Of a stretch of 64,000 nucleotides of DNA, positions 1-57,775 are shown piece after piece. Position 1 is the stretch's first letter. The number at the start of each line of letters is the position of its first letter. Source of the DNA: Natrinema sp. SYSU A 869 (GTDB taxonomy: Archaea; Halobacteriota; Halobacteria; Halobacteriales; Natrialbaceae); the NCBI RefSeq assembly GCF_019879105.1, contig NZ_CP082249.1, forward strand, positions 868,001 through 932,000, written 5' to 3'. The notes under the pieces were generated by a model that worked only from the letters and a program-made list of their open reading frames with translations, did not search any database and was not told where the DNA came from. The position numbers and the translations under genes are program-made.

Positions 1-562
1 TATCGACGATATCCCGTGCGAGGACGGGATCGAGCCAGACGTGCGGGTCGAACGACGAGGGATCGTGGTCGTGCTCGCCCTCGTGGCCATCCTCGTCGTT
101 GTGATCGTGAGATTCACTGTCGCCGTCGTGGCTGTCGTTTCCGTTCTCATGGCCCCCAGCATCGACCTCGTGATCCCAGCCGAGCAGCTGGTCGTCGAGC
201 CCGCTGAGTCCGTCGATGACGGTGACCGTGTCGTAGTCGGCCTCGAGCGTCGCCGCGATGTCCTGCGCCCACGAGAACTCGGGCGTATCGAAGTAGATGA
301 ACGCACCGGAATCCGCGATCTCTCGAGTGAGGTCACCGCTTGGCGACCAGCCGTGTCCAGCTTCACCGGTCCCGACCGGATTCTCGAAGCTGATCGCGTC
401 GCCGCTGACCTGCTCGGTCCAGTCCCAGAGCGTAAAGAAGGCGGCGTAGCCGGTATCGAGGCCCGTGGTCGCACTGCCGACGTCGTCAAGACACCCGGCG
501 ATAGTGCCGGCAGTGGCCGCGCCGGCACCCGCCCTCACCAGCGCGCGTCGTGTCAGATTCAT
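1..562 (-). CDS. Zinc-type ABC transporter substrate-binding lipoprotein, 5' part (runs off left edge)
   Basis: Reading leftwards from an ATG at 562, the frame is open to base 1, so about 187 N-terminal residues are present and the C-terminus is missing. The N-terminus starts MNLTRRALVRAGAG and reaches TIAGC at about residue 24, a twin-arginine signal with a lipobox, so the protein is probably exported by Tat and lipid-anchored. The body looks like the ZnuA/TroA family of periplasmic metal-binding proteins: a region about a single Asp/Glu-rich domain, then a long His/Asp/Gly-rich loop (roughly residues 130-170, many His-Asp repeats) followed by SSFDPHVWLDP, the metal-ligand motif of the family. 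The His-rich loop points to zinc (or manganese). A TATA-like box lies about 25 bases upstream. Zinc specificity is inferred. Confidence 0.9.
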   Translation of the reverse strand, partial: MNLTRRALVRAGAGAATAGTIAGCLDDVGSATTGLDTGYAAFFTLWDWTEQVSGDAISFENPVGTGEAGHGWSPSGDLTREIADSGAFIYFDTPEFSWAQDIAATLEADYDTVTVIDGLSGLDDQLLGWDHEVDAGGHENGNDSHDGDSESHDHNDEDGHEGEHDHDPSSFDPHVWLDPVLARDIVD

Positions 563-16459: not shown

Positions 16460-16687
16460 AGCATCGGGATCGTATTGCTCACCGCACGGAGTCACGAACC
16501 GATTCTCGCGAGCGGTAAGCACATACTACACGCTATCTGGGCAGCGAAACAGTCGCCGTCAGACACGACAACAATGGATTACGCCCCAGCCTATGCCGGC
16601 CGAACGAGGGGTCTCGAGAAACGAGACACTGACCCGACGGGATGGCCCTATTGACTCAAGTGCGGGTCGGTCGCAAGGCCTAACGAG

Positions 16688-17977
16688 ATGGCAAACGATT
16701 CATCCTCAAACGAGACTGATATACCCGAGCAGCGACGGATGACCACTGATCCCAAACGCATCAGGGAGTGGGCCGAGGCCCGCGATGCCGTTCCGGTCAG
16801 GGTCCGAGATAGCGAGGACCACGGCCACTCCTTTGTCCGCCGCGACGAAATGGGCGAAAGTCACGAGGAGTACACCTGGGACGAGTTTGAGGAGCGGTTC
16901 GAAGACGACGACCTCGTTTTCATCTATCACGAGACGGAACCGACCGGCGAGGGGATAGGCTTCTTCGAGATCGTCGAACGCGAGCGGGCGTTCGAACGTG
17001 CCGACCTCGGCCGGGACGAACTCGAGGACTCGCTGCGACGCGGCGAGACGGTGACGACTGAGATCGTCGAGACGCAGGTCGTCGAACGGGAGATCGTCGA
17101 GCGAGACACGATCGAGAGCGAGGTGATCGATACGGACCTGGTCGAACGCGACGTCGTCGATTCCGAACTGATTGATCGGACGATCGTCGAGACGGAGTTC
17201 GTCTCCGACGATATGATCGAACTGACCGTCGACGAGACGCGCCTCGATACCATCGAGGAGATCGAACGCTACATCGTCGAGAGCCGCGTCGTCGACGTCG
17301 ACATCGAGCAAGACGAGGAGATCGAGCGGGACGATATCCAGACGGACATCGAACTCGAGAGCGTCCAGCGATCGATTCTTGAGAGTGATGTCGTTCGCTC
17401 GAGCGTGACGCCCGACGATGTCGTCGAACAGGAAGTGATCCAGAGCCAACGGACCGAAGGCGACACCGTCCGGAGCGAACTCATCGAGCGCCGGACGATC
17501 GAAGAGGAGTTGACGGACCAGCGGCGGATGCGCTACGTGCTCGAGGAGAGCGAACTCATCGAGTCTGAGGTGATCACCAGCGACGTACTCGAGGGTGAGA
17601 TCATCGACGTCGACGAGTACGAGGCGATGGAAACCGGCGGCATGGAAACCGGAACTGCCGGGGCCACGGCCGACGAGACGATGGCCGAGACCGAGTCCGA
17701 CGCCGGCATGGGAACGACGGACGAGATGGCGGACGCGTCGGCGATCGAACTCTCGCCGGACGATCAGGGGAAAGACGTCGTCGACGAGTCGGGCCAGCAG
17801 ATCGGCATGGTTGCCGAAGTCGAGGGCCAGACGGCGTACGTCGACCCCGAGCCCGGGCTGACGGATCGGCTCAAAGCGCGGCTGGACTGGGGCGGCCACG
17901 GTGACGACGACTATCCGGTCGAGTCGGCACAGATAACCGAGATCACAGACGACGAAGTCGTCATCCGCAGCGAGTAA
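16688..17977 (+). CDS. Acidic five-residue-repeat protein with C-terminal PRC-barrel-like domain
   Basis: 429 residues, very acidic, no signal peptide or membrane segment. Residues about 15-110 form an N-terminal domain (RIREWAEARDAVPVRV, EYTWDEFEERFEDDDLVFIYHE). Residues about 115-320 repeat a five-residue pattern hydrophobic-hydrophobic-acidic-x-acidic/polar, for example IVERD TIESE VIDTD LVERD, for some forty units with a few interruptions, a periodicity that would suit a beta-solenoid or long beta meander. A Gly/Met/Thr/Glu-rich linker (about 320-355) leads to a domain of about 75 residues that resembles a PRC barrel (DVVDESGQQIGMVAEV, DDEVVIRSE). I recognise no described function. It lies alone, facing katG. 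Confidence 0.85.
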   Translation: MANDSSSNETDIPEQRRMTTDPKRIREWAEARDAVPVRVRDSEDHGHSFVRRDEMGESHEEYTWDEFEERFEDDDLVFIYHETEPTGEGIGFFEIVERERAFERADLGRDELEDSLRRGETVTTEIVETQVVEREIVERDTIESEVIDTDLVERDVVDSELIDRTIVETEFVSDDMIELTVDETRLDTIEEIERYIVESRVVDVDIEQDEEIERDDIQTDIELESVQRSILESDVVRSSVTPDDVVEQEVIQSQRTEGDTVRSELIERRTIEEELTDQRRMRYVLEESELIESEVITSDVLEGEIIDVDEYEAMETGGMETGTAGATADETMAETESDAGMGTTDEMADASAIELSPDDQGKDVVDESGQQIGMVAEVEGQTAYVDPEPGLTDRLKARLDWGGHGDDDYPVESAQITEITDDEVVIRSE

Positions 17978-18084: not shown

Positions 18085-20527
<2,443 letters not shown>

Positions 20528-20773
20528 TCAGCGTCTCGTCAGATCGACGATCAGATAGTCGTCAATGTCGCTCATACAGGAGGCCGGAACGATTATCTTT
20601 CCGTCATCGTTCGTATCGAACCTTCGAACGTTATCGATCGTCGGGGTCACAAGCAATCGTTGGAGTTCTCCGGTTTCGACGTTCATCGTGATGTTGTGAA
20701 CCGTGCCGATCTCCGTCCCGTCGGAGCCCATCACTGGCGTGTCGGAGAGGGTGGAAGCGAGGATCGTTGTCAT
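20528..20773 (-). CDS. PRC-barrel domain protein
   Basis: 81 residues making a single PRC-barrel fold: TLSDTPVMGSDGTEIGTVHNITMN at the N-terminus (two strands and the conserved Gly-turn), then LQRLLVTPT and KIIVPASCMSDIDDYLIVDL. Single-domain PRC-barrel proteins are common in haloarchaea and are related to RimM C-terminal domains and to photosynthetic reaction-centre H subunits; they often bind RNA, ribosome partners or membranes. It stands alone, 755 bases from katG's far side and close to the 3' end of the RimK gene but reading the same way. The complete start is the ATG at 20773. Confidence 0.88.
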   Translation of the reverse strand: MTTILASTLSDTPVMGSDGTEIGTVHNITMNVETGELQRLLVTPTIDNVRRFDTNDDGKIIVPASCMSDIDDYLIVDLTRR

Positions 20774-20880: not shown

Positions 20881-22224
20881 CTACTCTTCTTCCTCCGGCG
20901 TATCGGGCACATCGCTGTCGATTTGACGGCTGACGTCGACTTGATAGTTCTCGAGGATGTCCCGGCCGAGCAAGACGGGGTAATCCATGTGGCTGCGGTC
21001 CTCGACGCTGGCCGTTACGGTGTGTTGGTTGCCACCGACGCCGACGACGACGTCGACGACGGGCCGGCTCTTGGACTGTTTGCTACTCCCGGATCGGATT
21101 CGGGTAATGGACTTGATTGGGCCGGCACCAATGTCGGCGGCGAGGCCGGTATCGATGCTCGTCCGCGTCGCGCCCGTATCGGACTTTGCGAGCACCGACT
21201 TCGATCCGCTCGTTCCGGAAAGGACGATCTCCTCGGTGTACCCGATCACCGATGGTTCCGTGTCTTGAGCTACCGCCTCCGCGGGCTGCGCCGTCGGTCG
21301 GGAGTCGTCGAGAACGTTTGAAATCTCCTGTACTCGCTCGTCGTCGACTTCGCCGCCCGCACGTTCGATTGCCAGTTTCGCGATGTATGGTGCTGGGCTC
21401 ACTTGCGTTGCCTCGTAGAGTCCTTTGAATCCCGCTGTCGGGTTGACCTCGAGGACGAACCAGCCTTCGTCGCCCTCGACGAGGTCGACGCCGGCGTAGT
21501 CGAGGCCGACGATCTTGGCCGAACGACGGGCCATCTCGCGGGCCTCTTCGGGGAGGTCGTTGGTCGCGTCCTCGACGGAGCCCCCGAGGGCGACGTTGGT
21601 CCGCCAGTCGTTGTCCGGCGCGTAGCGGTACATCGCGGCGACGACCTCGCCGTCGACGACGTAGACGCGCAGATCACGGTGGCGGACGTCCGCTTGATCG
21701 ACGAGTTCCTGCAGGAAGGCGTAGCGGTTGCCGACTTTCGCATTGACCGGGTCGTCCGGCCCGACCTTCCACGTCCCGCCGCCGTGCGTACCGATCGCCG
21801 TCTTGTACACCGCCTCGTCGCCGTACCGTTCCCGCGCAGCGTTAAGCGTATCACCGCTGAGCGCAAGCGTCACGTCCGGTGTCCGAACGTCGTTCGACGC
21901 GAGCGCCGTCGCCGTCGAGAGCTTGTGAATCGCCGTCATCATCGCACTCGGTTCGTTGAGTGTCGGGATCAGCTGCGAAAACGCGTTTACCAGCCCGAGT
22001 TCCTCGGCGGGCTGTTCGGTGTTCGATAGCAGCATTCGGTTCGCGATCACGTCGACCTCGGGCTCGACAAGAGGGCTGCCGTCCGCGACGCTGATCGACG
22101 CGTTCTCGGTCCGAAGCCACTCGCTGTCGTGTCCGAGGTCCTCGACGGCGTTGAGAATTGCCTTAGTTTCCTTGCTCGTATGCAGGCTCAGTACCCCGAC
22201 GGTTACGGGATCGGCAACAGCCAT
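20881..22224 (-). CDS. RimK-type ATP-grasp ligase fused to a retropepsin-like protease domain
   Basis: 447 residues from the ATG at 22224. Residues about 1-310 are a RimK/LysX ATP-grasp ligase, which adds a glutamate or similar residue to a carboxyl group: YKTAIGTHGGGTWKV (nucleotide-binding loop), DLRVYVVDGEVVAAMYR, GVDLVEGDEGWFVLEVN (metal-binding Glu/Asn). Residues about 335-430 are a small aspartyl-protease-like domain with LAKSDTGATRTSID (active-site DTGA) and PVLLGRDIL (the psi-loop motif), as in the RimB-like putative ATP-dependent proteases usually encoded next to rimK. Fusing the modifier and the remover in one chain suggests a regulated glutamylation/deglutamylation cycle. The protein it modifies is unknown. 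The last bases (poly-Glu tail) are acidic. Confidence 0.9.
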   Translation of the reverse strand: MAVADPVTVGVLSLHTSKETKAILNAVEDLGHDSEWLRTENASISVADGSPLVEPEVDVIANRMLLSNTEQPAEELGLVNAFSQLIPTLNEPSAMMTAIHKLSTATALASNDVRTPDVTLALSGDTLNAARERYGDEAVYKTAIGTHGGGTWKVGPDDPVNAKVGNRYAFLQELVDQADVRHRDLRVYVVDGEVVAAMYRYAPDNDWRTNVALGGSVEDATNDLPEEAREMARRSAKIVGLDYAGVDLVEGDEGWFVLEVNPTAGFKGLYEATQVSPAPYIAKLAIERAGGEVDDERVQEISNVLDDSRPTAQPAEAVAQDTEPSVIGYTEEIVLSGTSGSKSVLAKSDTGATRTSIDTGLAADIGAGPIKSITRIRSGSSKQSKSRPVVDVVVGVGGNQHTVTASVEDRSHMDYPVLLGRDILENYQVDVSRQIDSDVPDTPEEEE

Positions 22225-22315
22225 ACGAACTAGACACCGAGCCGCCGGATAAGTATTGGCAGTGGCTTCATTCGCCGACGGGTCAGGGATGACATCGTCC
22301 GAAACGGTGGCAAGA

Positions 22316-23785
22316 TCAGCCAATGACCGACCGAACTTGTCCCGGATCGACCAGCCCGCTCAGCACCGCCAGCGCGCCCCACGTGATCGCTCCTACCGCG
22401 ATCGCGCCGAACAGCATGAGCAGGCTCGACACCATCGGCGTCACTAGCAACACGGAGACCGCCATCACGCCCGTAATTCCACAAATAAGTCCCGTCGTCC
22501 GGGCGAGCCGCCCGACGTGTAGGCCGAGTTCGGTGTGGACGATATAGAGGTTCACGGCGACGTACACCGAGTGGGTCGCGACCGTCGCGATCGCAGCGCC
22601 GACGACCCCGATCGTCGGAATCAGCAGGACGTTCAGTCCGAAGTTGGCGACGGCAGTCCCGCCCTTTGCGACGGCGCGCGCTCGAGCGCGCCCGAGGTAG
22701 TCAAGACTATCGCTGGTCAGGTTCGTAATCGCCTGCAACACGACGAATCCGGCGAGGACCTGCAGAATGGGGACTGCGTCCGCGTAGTCGTTCCCGATCA
22801 CCATCGTCAGGAACGGCTCCGCGACGATCGCGAGGCCGACCGCTGCCGGGATGTAAAGCAACAGGATGTTCGTCAGTGAGGTCTGATAGATCCGTCTGGC
22901 CTCCTCGAGTTCGCCGGCTGCCTTCTGTTCGCCGAAGTTCGGTGAGATGGTAAAGCCGAGCGACTCGGCGGGGGCGAGCACGAAATCGGTGATCTGTTTT
23001 GCGAGGGTATAGAACGCGACCGCGGCGGGGTTGAGGAAGAAGCCGACCAGCACGATGTCGATCTGTTTGTCGATGACGTTCGCGCTCCGGGTCGCCGTCA
23101 ACGGGATGCTGTACTCGAGTAACCGACGTGAGAGCCCGTCTTCGTACTCCTCGGCGGTCTCGTGTCGACTGTAGAAGCCGTAGTAGAGAATACCCATGCC
23201 GACGGCAGCAGCGATCGCGTAGCCGACGATGTAGCCGAAGAACGCGCCGAGCGCGCCGAGCCCCGCGAGCACGAACGCGACGGCGAAGATGAACCGGCCG
23301 GCCCCGCTGATCGCCTGGACGATCGCGCTGTAGCCGAGGTGATTAAACCCCTGAAGCGCCACCTGTGCGAAAGTGCTCCCGGAGAAGACGACGAGATAGA
23401 GCACGCCCGCAGCGAGAAACGGAGCCGCTCCGGGATCGCCGAGTGCAGTCGCGATCCGCTCGTGAAAGAGCAACAAGACGTAGCCGACGACCGTGAGCAG
23501 GATGATCTTGGCCGTGATCACCGACCTGAGGAGATACGGAATCTGGCCCGGATCCGTCTCGCGGTACTCCGAAATATACCGTGCGACGGACTTGCTGAGC
23601 CCGAGATCCGCGAACAGCTGGACGATAGCTAAGATACCGATCGCCCAGTACAGCGCGCCGTACCCGTCCGGATCGAGCAGGTACCGCGCCAGCACGAACA
23701 TTAACAACGCGCTCGAGATCATGTAGATCCCGCGCGCGACGAGCGTTGCCTTGAAGCCGTCGACGATGTGGTCCTCCCTGTTCAT
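22316..23785 (-). CDS. Polysaccharide flippase / oligosaccharide exporter (Wzx/MATE type)
   Basis: 489 residues with about 12-14 hydrophobic helices spread over the whole length. It begins MNREDHIVDGFKATLVARGIY, and shows YLLDPDGYGALYWAIGI, the family's first-loop motif, and LGLSKSVARYISEYR. The family moves lipid-linked glycans across the membrane; in haloarchaea it serves S-layer or N-glycan assembly. No glycosyltransferase gene flanks it here, so the substrate is unknown. It ends 91 bases before the RimK-protease gene and reads in the same direction, so the two may share a transcript. Confidence 0.92.
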   Translation of the reverse strand: MNREDHIVDGFKATLVARGIYMISSALLMFVLARYLLDPDGYGALYWAIGILAIVQLFADLGLSKSVARYISEYRETDPGQIPYLLRSVITAKIILLTVVGYVLLLFHERIATALGDPGAAPFLAAGVLYLVVFSGSTFAQVALQGFNHLGYSAIVQAISGAGRFIFAVAFVLAGLGALGAFFGYIVGYAIAAAVGMGILYYGFYSRHETAEEYEDGLSRRLLEYSIPLTATRSANVIDKQIDIVLVGFFLNPAAVAFYTLAKQITDFVLAPAESLGFTISPNFGEQKAAGELEEARRIYQTSLTNILLLYIPAAVGLAIVAEPFLTMVIGNDYADAVPILQVLAGFVVLQAITNLTSDSLDYLGRARARAVAKGGTAVANFGLNVLLIPTIGVVGAAIATVATHSVYVAVNLYIVHTELGLHVGRLARTTGLICGITGVMAVSVLLVTPMVSSLLMLFGAIAVGAITWGALAVLSGLVDPGQVRSVIG

Positions 23786-52821: not shown

Positions 52822-55800
52822 TCATAGTGTCGTCACATCCAGAATGTTGACTACTTCCCCTCGCCCCCGCACCGTTGCACCGCTGAGCCCCGGGATGTCG
52901 CTCATAACGCCCTCGAAGGGCTTGACGACGACTTCTTGCTGGCCCTGAACGTGATCGCAGTGGAGGGCCACCTCGCGAACCTCGTCGCGAATGCGGACGA
53001 CCATTCCGTCGCCGTTCGCACCGGGAGTCGGCGTCTCGAGGACGTCGGTCAGTTGGATGACGGGGTAGTCGTTGTCGTCGTCGCGGAGTACGGATTCGCC
53101 GGCGGTCGTCTCGACTGCGGCCGCGGGTTCGATGTCCTGAACGGCCTTGGTTGGAATGCCGAACTCCTTGCCGCCGCTCTCGACGAACAGGATTTCGTCG
53201 ATCGCGACCGTTACCGGGAGCGTCATCGTGACGGTCGTTCCTTCGCCCTCGTCGCTGTCGATCGAGACCGTCCCCTCGAGGTCCTCGATCGTTCGTTTGA
53301 CGACGTCCATTCCGACGCCGCGGCCACTGACATCCGTCACCTCCTCGGCCGTCGAGAGGCCGGGATGGAAGATGAGATCGTAGGCCTCCTCGTCGGGGAG
53401 ATCGGCGGCCTCGTCCGAGTCGAGAACGCCTGCTTCGACGGCCTCGTCGCGCAGTCGATCAGGATCAAGTCCGCTCCCATCGTCCTCGACCGTGATCGTC
53501 ACGCGATCGCGCGAGCGGTCGGCGTTGACCTCGACGGACCCTTCGCTCGGCTTATCGACCTCCTCGCGCCGTTCTGGCGATTCGATCCCGTGGTCGACGG
53601 CGTTGCGAACCAGATGGATCAGCGGATCGCCGATCCGATCGAGAATACTTCGATCCAGTTCGACGTTCTCGCCGCTCATCTCGAAGGCGACCTCCTTGTC
53701 CTGATCGCGAGCGATGTCGCGAACGACTCGCGGCAGGCGGTTCGTCACCGTCTGGAGCGGCACCAGCCGGATGTCCATCACCGTCTCCTGAAGATCAGTC
53801 GTCAGGTCCGACAGCGCATCGAGTTCTGTCTCGAGGGCTGTGCCGTCGTCATCTGCATCGGCCGCGTGACGGAGGCGGACGCGACTAGTCACCAGTCCCT
53901 CGACGAGCGTGAGCAGGGAGTCGACTTGCTCGATGTCGACGCGAACCGACTGGATCTCGTCAGTTTCGTCGTCGGCGTCCGGTTGGTCACTCGCCTCCGG
54001 AAGCGGGATGTCCGGAATCTCCATTTCGGGTTCGTCGACGATCCGTACGACGTCATCGTCGTCATCGCCGTCGGTATCCGAATCACTCCCATCGTCGCCG
54101 AATGACGCGGCGGCGGGGAGACTCGAGTCCGAATCGGTTTCGGCGTCCGACGCCGGCGATTCGAAGCCGGCAGTATCGGTATCGAACTCGGTGGTTCCGG
54201 CGAACGACTCGTCGTCGGGTTGTTCGTCCAGTTGCTCGTCGAACCCGCTCTCGAAGTCGTCCTCCGACTCCGTCTCGGAGTCGGCGGGATCGTCCGAGAA
54301 GTCCGCGAACGAGTCGTCGGTATCCGCTGCGAAGCTGTCGTCGTCGAAGGGGTCTGACTCATCGTCGGCCGTTTCAAAGTCGTCGTCGAAGGCTGCCGTT
54401 GGCTCGAACCCGTCGTCGTCGGAGTCATCGAACGAGTCGGTCGTCGCTCCGTCGTCCGCTGCAGTCTCCGCGGCGTCGGCCGTTTCTTCGACCACAGCAG
54501 TTTCGTCGGTCTCCTCGGCTGCAGCATCGGCCTCGATGTCGGTTGTGACACTTGTGTCGACGGACTCGACAGTAGCGTCGGTCGTGGGTTCAGTTGCATC
54601 GTCGAACGAATCCGAGTCAGCAGTGTCGGCCACGACATAGTCGCCGTCGTCGGCGACCGAAGCGCCGTCGGCTGTCTCCGTCTCGTCGGCGGTGTCATCC
54701 TCGATATCGTCAGCGTCGCTCTCGGAAGCGACATCCTCGGTAGCCTCCCCGATATCGGGACTCTCATCGGCAGCGACCGTCTCGTCGGAAACGTCCGCAG
54801 CAGTGGCCGTCTCATCGGTAGCGTCCTCGTCAACGGTCGCCTCAGCAGCAACGTCCTCGTCAACGACTGCCTCCGCAGCAACGTCTTCGTCGGTGACCGT
54901 CTCATCAGTACCTGTCTCGTGGGCGACCATCTCATCGCTCTCCGCTTCGGCCACTACCGAATCGTCGGCGATGTCTTCGTCAACCGTCTCCGCCTCGAGG
55001 TCGGTCACGTCGGCCGTCCCGTCGCTCGGTGCGTCGGGTTCCGAATCGGCCGCTACAGAATCATCCGCCGGTGTGTCCGGGAACGACGCCTCGAGAGTAT
55101 CGTCCCTCGACCCCGCGTCATCGATATCAGTCGCCGCTTCGCTATCTTCTTCATCGAACTCAAGGTCGTCGACGGCATCGTCGAGGTCATCTTCGGTCGG
55201 CGAGAACGCGTCGTTATCGCCGACGTCAGCACTCGACTCGTCCGCAGTGACGGTTCGGTCCTCGGCGGTGTCGTCCGGACTTGGAACGTCGTTCGACTCC
55301 GATTCGACCAGAATGTCGTCGACCGCGTCCGCTGACGGTTCCTCGTCGTCGAGGAACGAGTCGTCATCGGCGTCGTTGCCGAGGAGTTCGTCCATATCGA
55401 CTTCCTCTTCCTCGTCGAACTCGTCGAACTCGAGTTCCTCGAGTTCGTCCTGTAACTCGTCGAAGCCGACCATTTCGACCTCGTCTTTGAGTTCGTCGAA
55501 GACCGCACCGGCATCGTCGACTTCTTCGTCTTCGGATTCGGATGCCGCGTCGGCTCCGGTCTCGTCGTCGGCCGCTGACTCCGTCGTCTCCGCAGCCTTG
55601 GCGGTCGATCCGTCGTCCGCATCGAGGCCATCGGCCGGGGAGTCGCCTGGTTCGGCATCGATTTCATCGATGTCCTCTTCGTCAAGCAGGTCGTCGAACG
55701 ACCCGGCTTCGCCCATATCCTCGAACGCGTCGAGTTCCTCGTCCTCGACGTCTTCAACCATCTCATCGAGGTTATCGAACTCGTTGAACTCGTCGAGCAA

Positions 55801-56628
55801 GTCGTCGACCTCGAGGTCCTGAGCTTCATCGGCAGAGATATCGTCACCCGGTTCGGTGTCGTCTGCCGACTGCGCCGTGGTCGCGCCCGCGACCGCGTTA
55901 GTACCCTCAAATCGATCGGAGACGTCGACGATCTCGAACTCGTCGACCTCTTCAACCGGCTCGAGTCCCGAGGCGATCGCGTTCTCGCCGACCGCAGTCC
56001 CGAAGACCGCATCGAAGCTCTCGCCGTAGTCCGCAGCCTCGATCGTTTGGCGGGGCGGGTCGGTTCCGATCAGATCGAACGCGTCGATCAGTGCGTCGAC
56101 GACCAGTTCACCGTTGTTGATCCCTTCCTCCTGTGCGATCGCGAGGCGGGCGAGATAGACGTCGTGACCGTCGTCGGCTGGCGGCTCGAATCGGGAACAG
56201 ACATCGTCAATCTCGTCCGCGGTAGGCGGTTCGATTCCCGAGACCGCGCCGTCTGCGTCAGCCAGGTGATTCCGAAGCGCCTCGATCGTCGCCGACGGAT
56301 CGGTCTCGATCTCGCCGGTCTCGGCGACCTCGTCGATCATCGTCTCGAGTTCGTCGACGGCGTCGAAGACGACGTCCATCAGCTCCGCGGTCACCTCGAG
56401 ATCATCGCGGCGGACGGCATCGAGCAGGTCCTCGATCGCATGGGCGAGGTCGCTGGCTGTTTCCAAGCCCAGCGCCCCACAGTTCCCCTTGAGGGTGTGT
56501 GCGATCCGGAAGATGTTCTCCATCGCCTCCTCGTCGTCGGGCTCGCGCTCGAAGGTGAGCAAGGCGTTGTTCAGTTCCGTAATCCGTTCTTCGCTCTCCT
56601 GAACGAAGTCTGTCAGATAATCACTCAT
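52822..56628 (-). CDS. cheA: Chemotaxis histidine kinase CheA with a giant acidic linker
   Basis: 1268 residues, about twice the usual archaeal CheA. P1/Hpt has NIFRIAHTLKGNCGALG (phospho-His44). Residues about 130-240 look like a P2 response-regulator-binding domain. Then comes a linker of about 640 residues (roughly 250-890), almost entirely Asp, Glu, Ser, Ala, Thr and Val, including a tandem DEDVAAEA repeat. P3 dimer helices (DIEQVDSLLTLVEGL), P4 ATPase with HLVRNAVDHGIE, GSGLDPDRL and GRGVGMDVV, and the CheW-like P5 (PVTVAIDEILFVESGGKEFGI) follow and are complete. The ATG at 56628 is preferred over an upstream frame because the Hpt begins there; it overlaps the cheB stop by eight bases. 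Confidence 0.95.
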   Translation of the reverse strand: MSDYLTDFVQESEERITELNNALLTFEREPDDEEAMENIFRIAHTLKGNCGALGLETASDLAHAIEDLLDAVRRDDLEVTAELMDVVFDAVDELETMIDEVAETGEIETDPSATIEALRNHLADADGAVSGIEPPTADEIDDVCSRFEPPADDGHDVYLARLAIAQEEGINNGELVVDALIDAFDLIGTDPPRQTIEAADYGESFDAVFGTAVGENAIASGLEPVEEVDEFEIVDVSDRFEGTNAVAGATTAQSADDTEPGDDISADEAQDLEVDDLLDEFNEFDNLDEMVEDVEDEELDAFEDMGEAGSFDDLLDEEDIDEIDAEPGDSPADGLDADDGSTAKAAETTESAADDETGADAASESEDEEVDDAGAVFDELKDEVEMVGFDELQDELEELEFDEFDEEEEVDMDELLGNDADDDSFLDDEEPSADAVDDILVESESNDVPSPDDTAEDRTVTADESSADVGDNDAFSPTEDDLDDAVDDLEFDEEDSEAATDIDDAGSRDDTLEASFPDTPADDSVAADSEPDAPSDGTADVTDLEAETVDEDIADDSVVAEAESDEMVAHETGTDETVTDEDVAAEAVVDEDVAAEATVDEDATDETATAADVSDETVAADESPDIGEATEDVASESDADDIEDDTADETETADGASVADDGDYVVADTADSDSFDDATEPTTDATVESVDTSVTTDIEADAAAEETDETAVVEETADAAETAADDGATTDSFDDSDDDGFEPTAAFDDDFETADDESDPFDDDSFAADTDDSFADFSDDPADSETESEDDFESGFDEQLDEQPDDESFAGTTEFDTDTAGFESPASDAETDSDSSLPAAASFGDDGSDSDTDGDDDDDVVRIVDEPEMEIPDIPLPEASDQPDADDETDEIQSVRVDIEQVDSLLTLVEGLVTSRVRLRHAADADDDGTALETELDALSDLTTDLQETVMDIRLVPLQTVTNRLPRVVRDIARDQDKEVAFEMSGENVELDRSILDRIGDPLIHLVRNAVDHGIESPERREEVDKPSEGSVEVNADRSRDRVTITVEDDGSGLDPDRLRDEAVEAGVLDSDEAADLPDEEAYDLIFHPGLSTAEEVTDVSGRGVGMDVVKRTIEDLEGTVSIDSDEGEGTTVTMTLPVTVAIDEILFVESGGKEFGIPTKAVQDIEPAAAVETTAGESVLRDDDNDYPVIQLTDVLETPTPGANGDGMVVRIRDEVREVALHCDHVQGQQEVVVKPFEGVMSDIPGLSGATVRGRGEVVNILDVTTL
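54790..54905 (-). repeat. Tandem 30-base coding repeat in the CheA linker
   Basis: On the minus strand the linker encodes VDEDVAAEA three times with changes (EDVAAEAVVDEDVAAEATVDE, broken here into two adjacent 10-residue units, then a degenerate third). At DNA level the unit is about 30 bases long (cctcgtcaac(gg/ga)...gcagcaacgt). Such repeats expand and shrink by slippage, which fits the extreme linker length. Confidence 0.6.
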
Positions 56629-57775
56629 CGTTCTCACCGTCCGTCGTGAACGCGTCGACGATCGCATCGGCGATGCCGTCAGCGGGCGCGACCGTATCGA
56701 CACAGCCTGTTTCGATTGCCTGACAGGGGATGCCAAAGACCGGACTTGTCGCCTCGTCCTGTGCAATGGTCCGACCGCCAGCGGCCTTGACCGCCTCGAT
56801 CCCGGCCGCACCGTCGCGGCCCATACCAGTCAGAACGACGCCACAGAGCGCGTCGGAGACCCGTTCGGCGGCGCTCTCCATCGTCACGTCGATCGCCGGC
56901 CGTACGCCGTGGACTCGCTCGCCGTCGTCGAGTCGCAGGCGAAGAGCGCCACCGACGTTGCTCGCCACTTCGAGATGGTGATTGCCCGGTGCGACCGCGG
57001 CCTCGCCGGACTGGATCCGATCCCGATTCGTTGCCTCGCTGACGTCGTACGCGCTGCGTGCGTCGAGCCGCTCAGCGAACCGCTCAGTGAATCCGGGAGG
57101 CATGTGATGGATGACCAACACTTTTGCCTCGAGGTCGGCTGGCAGTCGTTCGAACAGTCGCTCGACGATCTTCGGCCCACCGGTCGACGCGCCGAGGACG
57201 ATCGTCGGTGCGTCGGCCCGGTCGCCATCGACGGCGATCGGGTCCGCGTCCTCGTCCGGGTCGCCGGTGGAACCAATCTTGGGAGCCGTATCGGGGGCGG
57301 TCGTCCCTCGTCCCGCACTGTCGGCACCCCTCGAGCGGGTCGCGTAGGCCGTCGCGGAGGCCCGTGCAAGCGCCACTGACGAGACATCGGCCTCGGCGAG
57401 GTCGTCGACCGCTTCGACGACCTCGTCAGTGAGGTGAGCGATGTTTCGCGAATTGGAGCCGTCGGGCTTGTGAAGGAAGTCCACGGCCCCTCGCTCCAAA
57501 GCGTCGAGCGTCGCCTCAGTGCCGCGTTCGGTGTGAACGCTGAGCATGAGGATTGCGGTCGGATTCGTCGCCATGATCCGCTCGACGGCGTCGATACCGC
57601 CCATCTTGGGCATCTCGACGTCCATCGTCACGACGTCTGGATCGAACGCGGCGACGGTCTCGACTGCCTCGGATCCGTTCGCAGCCGTTTCAATATCGTA
57701 GCTGGCCGCCTCGAGCGCGTTGCCGATGACTGTCCGCATAAACTTCGAGTCGTCGACAACGAGTACTCGCGTCAT
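56621..57775 (-). CDS. cheB: Chemotaxis methylesterase CheB
   Basis: 384 residues: receiver domain 1-118 with the phospho-Asp in DVVTMDVEMPKMGG, a linker rich in Ala, Ser and Gly, and a C-terminal methylesterase domain about 185-375 with the catalytic triad in VLGASTGGPKIVERL (Ser), IHHMPPGFTERF (His) and GMGRDGAAGI (Asp). It removes methyl groups from receptors to reset signalling. Overlaps cheY by four bases and cheA by eight, so the cheY-cheB-cheA set is tightly coupled. Confidence 0.95.
   Translation of the reverse strand: MTRVLVVDDSKFMRTVIGNALEAASYDIETAANGSEAVETVAAFDPDVVTMDVEMPKMGGIDAVERIMATNPTAILMLSVHTERGTEATLDALERGAVDFLHKPDGSNSRNIAHLTDEVVEAVDDLAEADVSSVALARASATAYATRSRGADSAGRGTTAPDTAPKIGSTGDPDEDADPIAVDGDRADAPTIVLGASTGGPKIVERLFERLPADLEAKVLVIHHMPPGFTERFAERLDARSAYDVSEATNRDRIQSGEAAVAPGNHHLEVASNVGGALRLRLDDGERVHGVRPAIDVTMESAAERVSDALCGVVLTGMGRDGAAGIEAVKAAGGRTIAQDEATSPVFGIPCQAIETGCVDTVAPADGIADAIVDAFTTDGENDE

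Follow-up and report, generated by a model that had tools for sequence, protein, structure and literature searches.

We found that the gene at 16688..17977 of the window, the 64,000-nucleotide stretch of DNA analysed here, encodes a 429-aa protein with three domains, the central one of which carries a five-residue acidic repeat that is real and far beyond chance. In the libraries searched, nothing places this pentad domain in a described family or gives it a confident fold relative; taken as a whole, the protein is a new variant of the archaeal PRC-barrel proteins, built of several domains. Structure prediction points to very long antiparallel beta strands. Our leading reading, which we hold tentatively and with slightly less than even confidence, is that the protein is a stress-associated scaffold in the cytoplasm whose acidic beta arm is rigid and whose PRC domain serves for docking; more of this confidence lies with the long-strand architecture than with the function. 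The features of the locus, all on the forward (+) strand, are given below.

16653..16661, +: promoter-like element GACTCAAGT; it starts 35 nt upstream of the ATG, where a leaderless transcript would have its TATA box
16688..17977, +: whole gene, one open reading frame with three domains; full-length relatives of up to 86% identity across Halobacteria
16730..16999, +: N-terminal alpha/beta domain, residues 15-104 (tblastn, alignment, reverse search)
17090..17206, +: predicted strand S1, residues 135-173, gapless pentads (both AlphaFold2 runs; period-5 analysis)
17207..17212, +: tip of the first predicted hairpin, residues 174-175, where insertions in the family chiefly fall (107-sequence comparison)
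17213..17311, +: predicted strand S2, residues 176-208 (both AlphaFold2 runs)
17354..17431, +: a pair of short helices predicted in the stretch that joins the two hairpins, residues 223-232 and 242-248 (AlphaFold2, block pLDDT low at about 47-66)
17465..17539, +: predicted strand S3, residues 260-284, pentads (both AlphaFold2 runs)
17552..17605, +: predicted strand S4, residues 289-306, pentads (domain-only AlphaFold2)
17624..17737, +: acidic G/A/T/M-rich linker of variable length, residues 313-350 (pLDDT about 33)
17738..17974, +: C-terminal PRC-barrel domain, residues 351-429 (VIA-align fold matches; weak Pfam PRC matches in family members)

Spectral analysis of hydrophobicity over residues 120-309 gave a power of 24.9 at period 5 and 35.9 at period 4.95, against a shuffle mean of 1.0, and none of 5000 shuffles equalled this region at any period from 2 to 12. 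The power was 0.09 at period 2 and 0.17 at period 3.6, indicating that the pattern is neither that of a membrane beta-barrel strand nor that of an alpha helix. When we scanned 372 proteins predicted in the window and in 41 related loci for period 5, closer family members mostly scored 28-40, compared with about 8 at most for unrelated proteins. In the first 12 pentads, position 1 was V, I, L, T, F or M and position 2 was V or I without exception (12/12); E or D occupied position 3 in 10 out of 12 and position 5 in 9 out of 12, and R, T or S occupied position 4 in 10 out of 12. The consensus of this gapless first part is [VILT][VI][ED][RTS][ED]. The pentads are gapless at residues 121-180 and then resume to about residue 306 (window 17045-17605). 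The first-pass annotation had placed the repeat at 17030-17650; the repeat is indeed present and distinctive, and the two extents differ slightly. The pentad region contains 34% D+E (versus a mean of 18% for the predicted genes of the window), 9% K+R and 32% V+I+L, with a net charge of -48. The sole predicted gene in the window whose product is more acidic than the pentad protein lies at 52825-56811 and encodes a predicted protein of more than 1300 aa with about 32% D+E.

The pentad pattern recurs across Halobacteria: a pentad-domain profile matched 80 of 292 sampled genomes and 26 of 77 genera, with one gene per genome. The whole-protein query matched 120 of the 125 genomes of the window's family, many of them via the C-terminal domain alone. 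When 84,980 bacterial and archaeal species were scanned by a search that relies on short peptide patterns, 41 loci came up, all of them from Halobacteria, and as far as searched the pentad family appears to be confined to that group. A viral origin was rejected, as IMG/VR and phage records contained no relative of the pentad protein. Haloarchaeal megaplasmid records of full-length relatives are annotated "hypothetical protein", and our literature search found no paper describing this five-residue repeat. Single and profile queries with residues 110-310 against Pfam, NCBIfam, PHROGs and PDB sequences produced chance-level matches only. We discarded PHROG 5707 (E 0.00095), whose match lay mostly over the low-complexity linker (residues 286-351). 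The profile searches thus bore out the earlier view that the acidic pentads are distinct from the pentapeptide repeat and other described families, and none of them placed the repeat in a family of known function.

Compared with five relatives from Natrinema species, the repeat region had a dN/dS of 0.13-0.25, close to the values for the N-terminal domain (0.10-0.19) and the PRC domain (0.08-0.16) and well below that for the linker at residues 313-350 (0.42-1.17). The repeat is under purifying selection similar to that on the folded domains, and the linker is nearly neutral. Eight residues (E133, E138, E143, E193, E198, R164, T188 and S199) were invariant in a 37-sequence alignment and at least 90% conserved in a 42-sequence alignment.

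AlphaFold2 modelling of the full-length protein with 42 sequences gave a mean pLDDT of 69.7 and a pTM of 0.31, with strands at residues 139-173 and 176-205 (both at pLDDT about 80-92) and at 260-284 in addition to the C-terminal barrel. For the pentad domain alone, the pTM was 0.53 and strands were predicted at residues 135-173, 176-208, 260-284 and 289-306, with pLDDT mostly 75-92. The two runs agree in predicting long antiparallel strands and no solenoid coil. Insertions followed residue 175 in 33 of 107 sequences (up to 104 aa) and residue 171 in 15 of 107 (up to 52 aa), while residues 176-206 and S4 were indel-free in 107 out of 107 sequences and residues 260-286 in 106 out of 107. This concentration of insertions at the predicted tip, with almost none within the predicted strands, is seen from sequence alone and fits the hairpin model. 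Mutual information was weak: the best antiparallel bands lay near the expected registers (i+j 341-345 for hairpin 1 and 569-573 for hairpin 2), and for S1-S2 a parallel band stood slightly above the best antiparallel one. From strand geometry, a period of five would put the hydrophobic pair alternately on both faces, so that each face would carry hydrophobic and acidic patches.

Foldseek searches with the pentad domain against PDB and BFVD returned no match at E≤0.001, and VIA-align returned no Z of 8 or more. The top Foldseek rows, MACPF and gasdermin, were weak (E≥0.012, query TM≤0.23); we judged these, together with the tail sheath and TULIP rows, to be generic long-strand matches and rejected them. 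Absence from the searched fold libraries does not prove the pentad fold new. Should the predicted long strands be borne out, the domain could represent a fold class of its own, and we entertain, with more doubt than belief, the following form of it: a free-standing cytoplasmic sheet of antiparallel strands of up to 39 residues, with hydrophobic residues alternately on both faces, that would stack with others, or twist, to give a rigid arm or a fibre stable at molar KCl; its hairpin tip would be an evolvable end for activity or docking at which some relatives gained a CxxC pair.

The N-terminal domain has bacterial homologues. With this domain as the query, tblastn hit 140 plasmid records at E≤1, the best bacterial rows having E ~2e-4 and 35-40% identity. 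These homologues are stand-alone proteins of ~87 aa from rhizobia, Xanthomonas, Tistrella and others (loci L131, L132, L133 and L169-L177 of our set, on rhizobial and other bacterial plasmids), for which no Pfam family exceeded its cut-off. Their alignment with the N-terminal domain had 11 invariant columns, and a reverse search led back to the pentad gene at E 3.4e-11. In Aminobacter and Tistrella, Ku and LigD genes adjoin the homologue; at other loci it lies beside a ferritin-like gene or near treZ and a UdgX gene. Across 12 bacterial loci we found 10 sigma-EcfG-type sites versus 1.2 expected from first-order shuffles, most of them near the gene and not directly upstream. With a site within 300 nt upstream on the coding strand in 1 of 12 bacterial genes, we rejected an EcfG promoter directly driving these genes. 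Two Sinorhizobium meliloti papers did not mention the homologue locus under the tags tried. The company of the bacterial genes hints that the N-terminal domain works in a general-stress setting, without proving this for the archaeal protein.

Fold comparison of residues 351-429 by VIA-align gave RimM (2f1l; Z 7.4, rmsd 2.5, 60 residues), A. fulgidus PRC1/PRC2 (8onw; Z 7.0, rmsd 3.2, 62 residues) and CdpB1/CdpB2 (8qzo; Z 5.8), and S. islandicus CdvA also matched. Nearly all top rows were PRC-barrels; all Z values were below 8, so the match is moderate. The window protein had no Pfam PRC (PF05239) match at E≤10, while 8 of 37 family members matched weakly (best E 0.0014), and in several plasmid records the C-terminal domain is annotated "PRC-barrel domain containing protein". 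Judged by its modelled fold, the C-terminus is a PRC-barrel, although its sequence falls short of the curated PF05239 score. The fusion of the repeat to a PRC-barrel-like domain, as first proposed, is consistent with these matches. The further claim that this domain resembles the PRC gene at 20528 survives for fold class but not for sequence: direct BLASTP between the two proteins gave E 0.82, and a search of the protein's own genome with the C-terminal domain returned six further matches, the gene at 20528 not among them. That gene (20528-20773, -) encodes an 81-aa PRC-barrel protein (Pfam E 9.5e-9) and occurs in 17 of 74 loci. About 17 kb upstream of the window, a Met/Gln/Gly-rich open frame (L073:4322-5640) lies close to a small paralogue of the C-terminal domain; its N-terminus is phasin-like and is followed by QQGM-like repeats.

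A promoter-like element of its own precedes the pentad gene. Among 32 loci (the window and 31 from Natrialbaceae), GACTNAAGT was present in 27 and stood at -32 to -36 in 26; the whole 64-kb window contains 2 occurrences, counting both strands. The usual order in Natrialbaceae is a DNA glycosylase gene (ogg-like HhH-GPD), the pentad gene, convergent katG and a rimK-like ATP-grasp gene. The rimK-like gene of the window (20881-22323) encodes an ATP-grasp protein whose C-terminal part looks retropepsin-like (Zn_protease PF05618 type), and a Pfam scan of the relatives' flanking genes suggests the same fusion of ATP-grasp and PF05618-type parts. Near the pentad gene of more distant loci, ogg, katG and rimK are all absent, and among 73 flanking proteins of divergent loci we saw no common theme, the top families accounting for 3 of 73 each. 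In Halovivax asiaticus, dnaK and a ferritin-like gene (DUF892-like, by reading) lie nearby. The scattered stress and copper genes near pentad genes are not statistically convincing.

Taking these results together, the protein would consist of three folded modules and would probably be cytoplasmic. The N-terminal alpha/beta domain, common to stand-alone bacterial proteins in general-stress neighbourhoods, may act in recognition. The pentad domain would form two very long antiparallel hairpins, with predicted strands of about 39, 33, 25 and 18 residues, which at full extension would make a rigid, acidic arm some 8-13 nm in length whose evolvable end is the tip of the first hairpin. The PRC-barrel, carried on the flexible linker, would serve as a docking domain for protein-protein contacts, as in other archaeal proteins such as CdpB1/CdpB2 of the divisome. 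Such a scaffold or adaptor would set a constant spacing between the N-terminal domain with its partner and the docking target of the PRC-barrel, and its own promoter may drive its synthesis either all the time or in response to stress. The scaffold and stress parts of this proposal draw on the company of the domains, and the flanking genes of divergent members do not add to them.

We weighed two other accounts of the repeat. A disordered acidic spacer, its composition merely a halophilic adaptation, could be argued from the 34% D+E and from low-confidence parts of the domain-only model such as residues 210-220 and 235-249. However, the strict hydrophobic period, the nearly indel-free strands and pLDDT values up to 92 are at odds with it, and the low dN/dS, which contrasts with that of the true linker, together with the conserved columns argues against it; we regard this account as largely refuted. 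AlphaFold2 of the repeat region likewise gave long strands, not the ordinary disordered helix that the first-pass annotation had named as its counter-case. That annotation called the repeat beta-solenoid-like. A quadrilateral or other beta-helix would be an acidic rod that could mimic DNA like the pentapeptide-repeat proteins MfpA/Qnr, and the strict period and the very acidic surface suit such a rod; moreover, AlphaFold2 can misjudge repeats when the alignment is shallow, here 42 sequences. By contrast, both predictions show long antiparallel strands and no coil, the fold matches listed include no solenoid, and the window protein had no match to the Pfam pentapeptide-repeat profile at E≤10. 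In the pentapeptide-repeat consensus, A(D/N)LXX, a small residue stands two before the core residue; in the pentads, that position is mostly E, D, T or Q. We therefore consider the solenoid improbable, and it is the annotation's alternative of an "unusual extended sheet" that agrees with both models.

Three other functions can be set against the scaffold reading. Metal or cation handling, in which E133, E138, E143, E193 and E198 and, in some relatives, a CxxC at the tip would bind metal or form a redox pair, seems unlikely to us, if the best of the three. At these five positions E rather than D is invariant or nearly so, and in 17 of 106 relatives (L060-L068, L116, L127, L135, L144, L147, L151, L162 and L163) R-x-C-x-x-C replaces a pentad just before the predicted tip, in a position that never varies and in most cases with a long insertion after it. 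Several of the CxxC-bearing genes have a copper-type ATPase or plastocyanin gene close by. A copper-type P-type ATPase gene lies directly downstream of the pentad gene in L060 and L068 and within about 5 kb of it in Halorussus limi, and in Halosolutus a plastocyanin gene is two genes away. The window's own protein has no CxxC, however, copper genes are near few members while neighbours overall lack a theme, and the haloarchaeal cytosol generally favours acidic residues. A cell-division or cell-envelope scaffold analogous to CdpB1/CdpB2 would draw on the PRC fold matches to those proteins, to A. fulgidus PRC1/PRC2 and to S. islandicus CdvA. CdpB1 and CdpB2 act in the divisome of the archaeon Haloferax (PMC12186497, review), and haloarchaeal vesicles are enriched in a PRC protein (PMC10927574). 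Yet the PRC fold is common to many unrelated functions, presence in 26 of 77 genera is patchy, unlike that of a core division protein, and we noticed no ftsZ or sepF neighbour at the loci inspected; such a role is improbable. A partnership with KatG in peroxide defence, raised in the first-pass annotation, is very improbable. The katG gene (18085-20223) lies immediately downstream and is near the pentad gene in 52 of 74 loci, a sample rich in Natrialbaceae, but the two genes are convergent and so not one transcript, a separate promoter-like element precedes the pentad gene, and no flanking gene is common to the more distant relatives. The pentad genes of Halovivax, Natronoglomus and Natronobiforma have no katG beside them but keep ogg and rimK, which points to simple local gene order. 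We accordingly dropped the idea of a katG operon.

As a conserved repeat outside any described family and with no solved relative, the pentad region lends itself to testing how an extended, isolated beta sheet could stay in solution instead of aggregating; here the acidic residues that fill most of positions 3 and 5 would achieve this in a molar-salt cytosol. In addition, a widespread bacterial orphan domain, found beside Ku and LigD in some alphaproteobacteria, gains a multi-domain archaeal relative that could help to find its function.

Parts of the protein can be compared with known systems. The N-terminal domain is like the bacterial proteins of the WP_011427509.1 type (Rhizobium etli p42b), with which it shares T-D-(H/P)-x-x-I-R-x-W-A-E-x-R ... 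W-D-E-F-x-x-x-F ... L-x-F-x-Y at 28-46% identity; unlike the pentad protein, those ~87-aa hypothetical proteins of rhizobia and other alphaproteobacteria consist of this one domain and lack both the pentads and the PRC-barrel. The C-terminal 79 residues have the PRC fold in common with the RimM C-terminal domain, PRC1/PRC2 (8onw), CdpB1/CdpB2 (8qzo) and CdvA (Z 5.2-7.4), whereas in the pentad protein the barrel is the last domain of a 429-aa chain that has two further ones. YsnF combines an acidic, V/E-rich domain with a PRC-barrel, and the YsnF/AvaK-type stress proteins (PRC-barrel plus DUF2382, PF09557) likewise pair the two. Their domain order is reversed relative to the pentad protein, and at the profile level DUF2382 matched 0 of 37 members at E≤0.1 and 0 of 61 genomes of the window's family, in a search whose control matched in B. 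subtilis. Pentapeptide-repeat proteins (quadrilateral beta-helix, PF00805 and relatives) have the five-residue period in common with the pentads, but the pentads consist of a hydrophobic pair followed by E/D-x-E/D and are predicted, at pTM 0.31-0.53, to form long antiparallel strands. Membrane beta-barrels and pore-forming hairpins also have long strands, built on a two-residue in/out hydrophobic alternation that the pentads lack.
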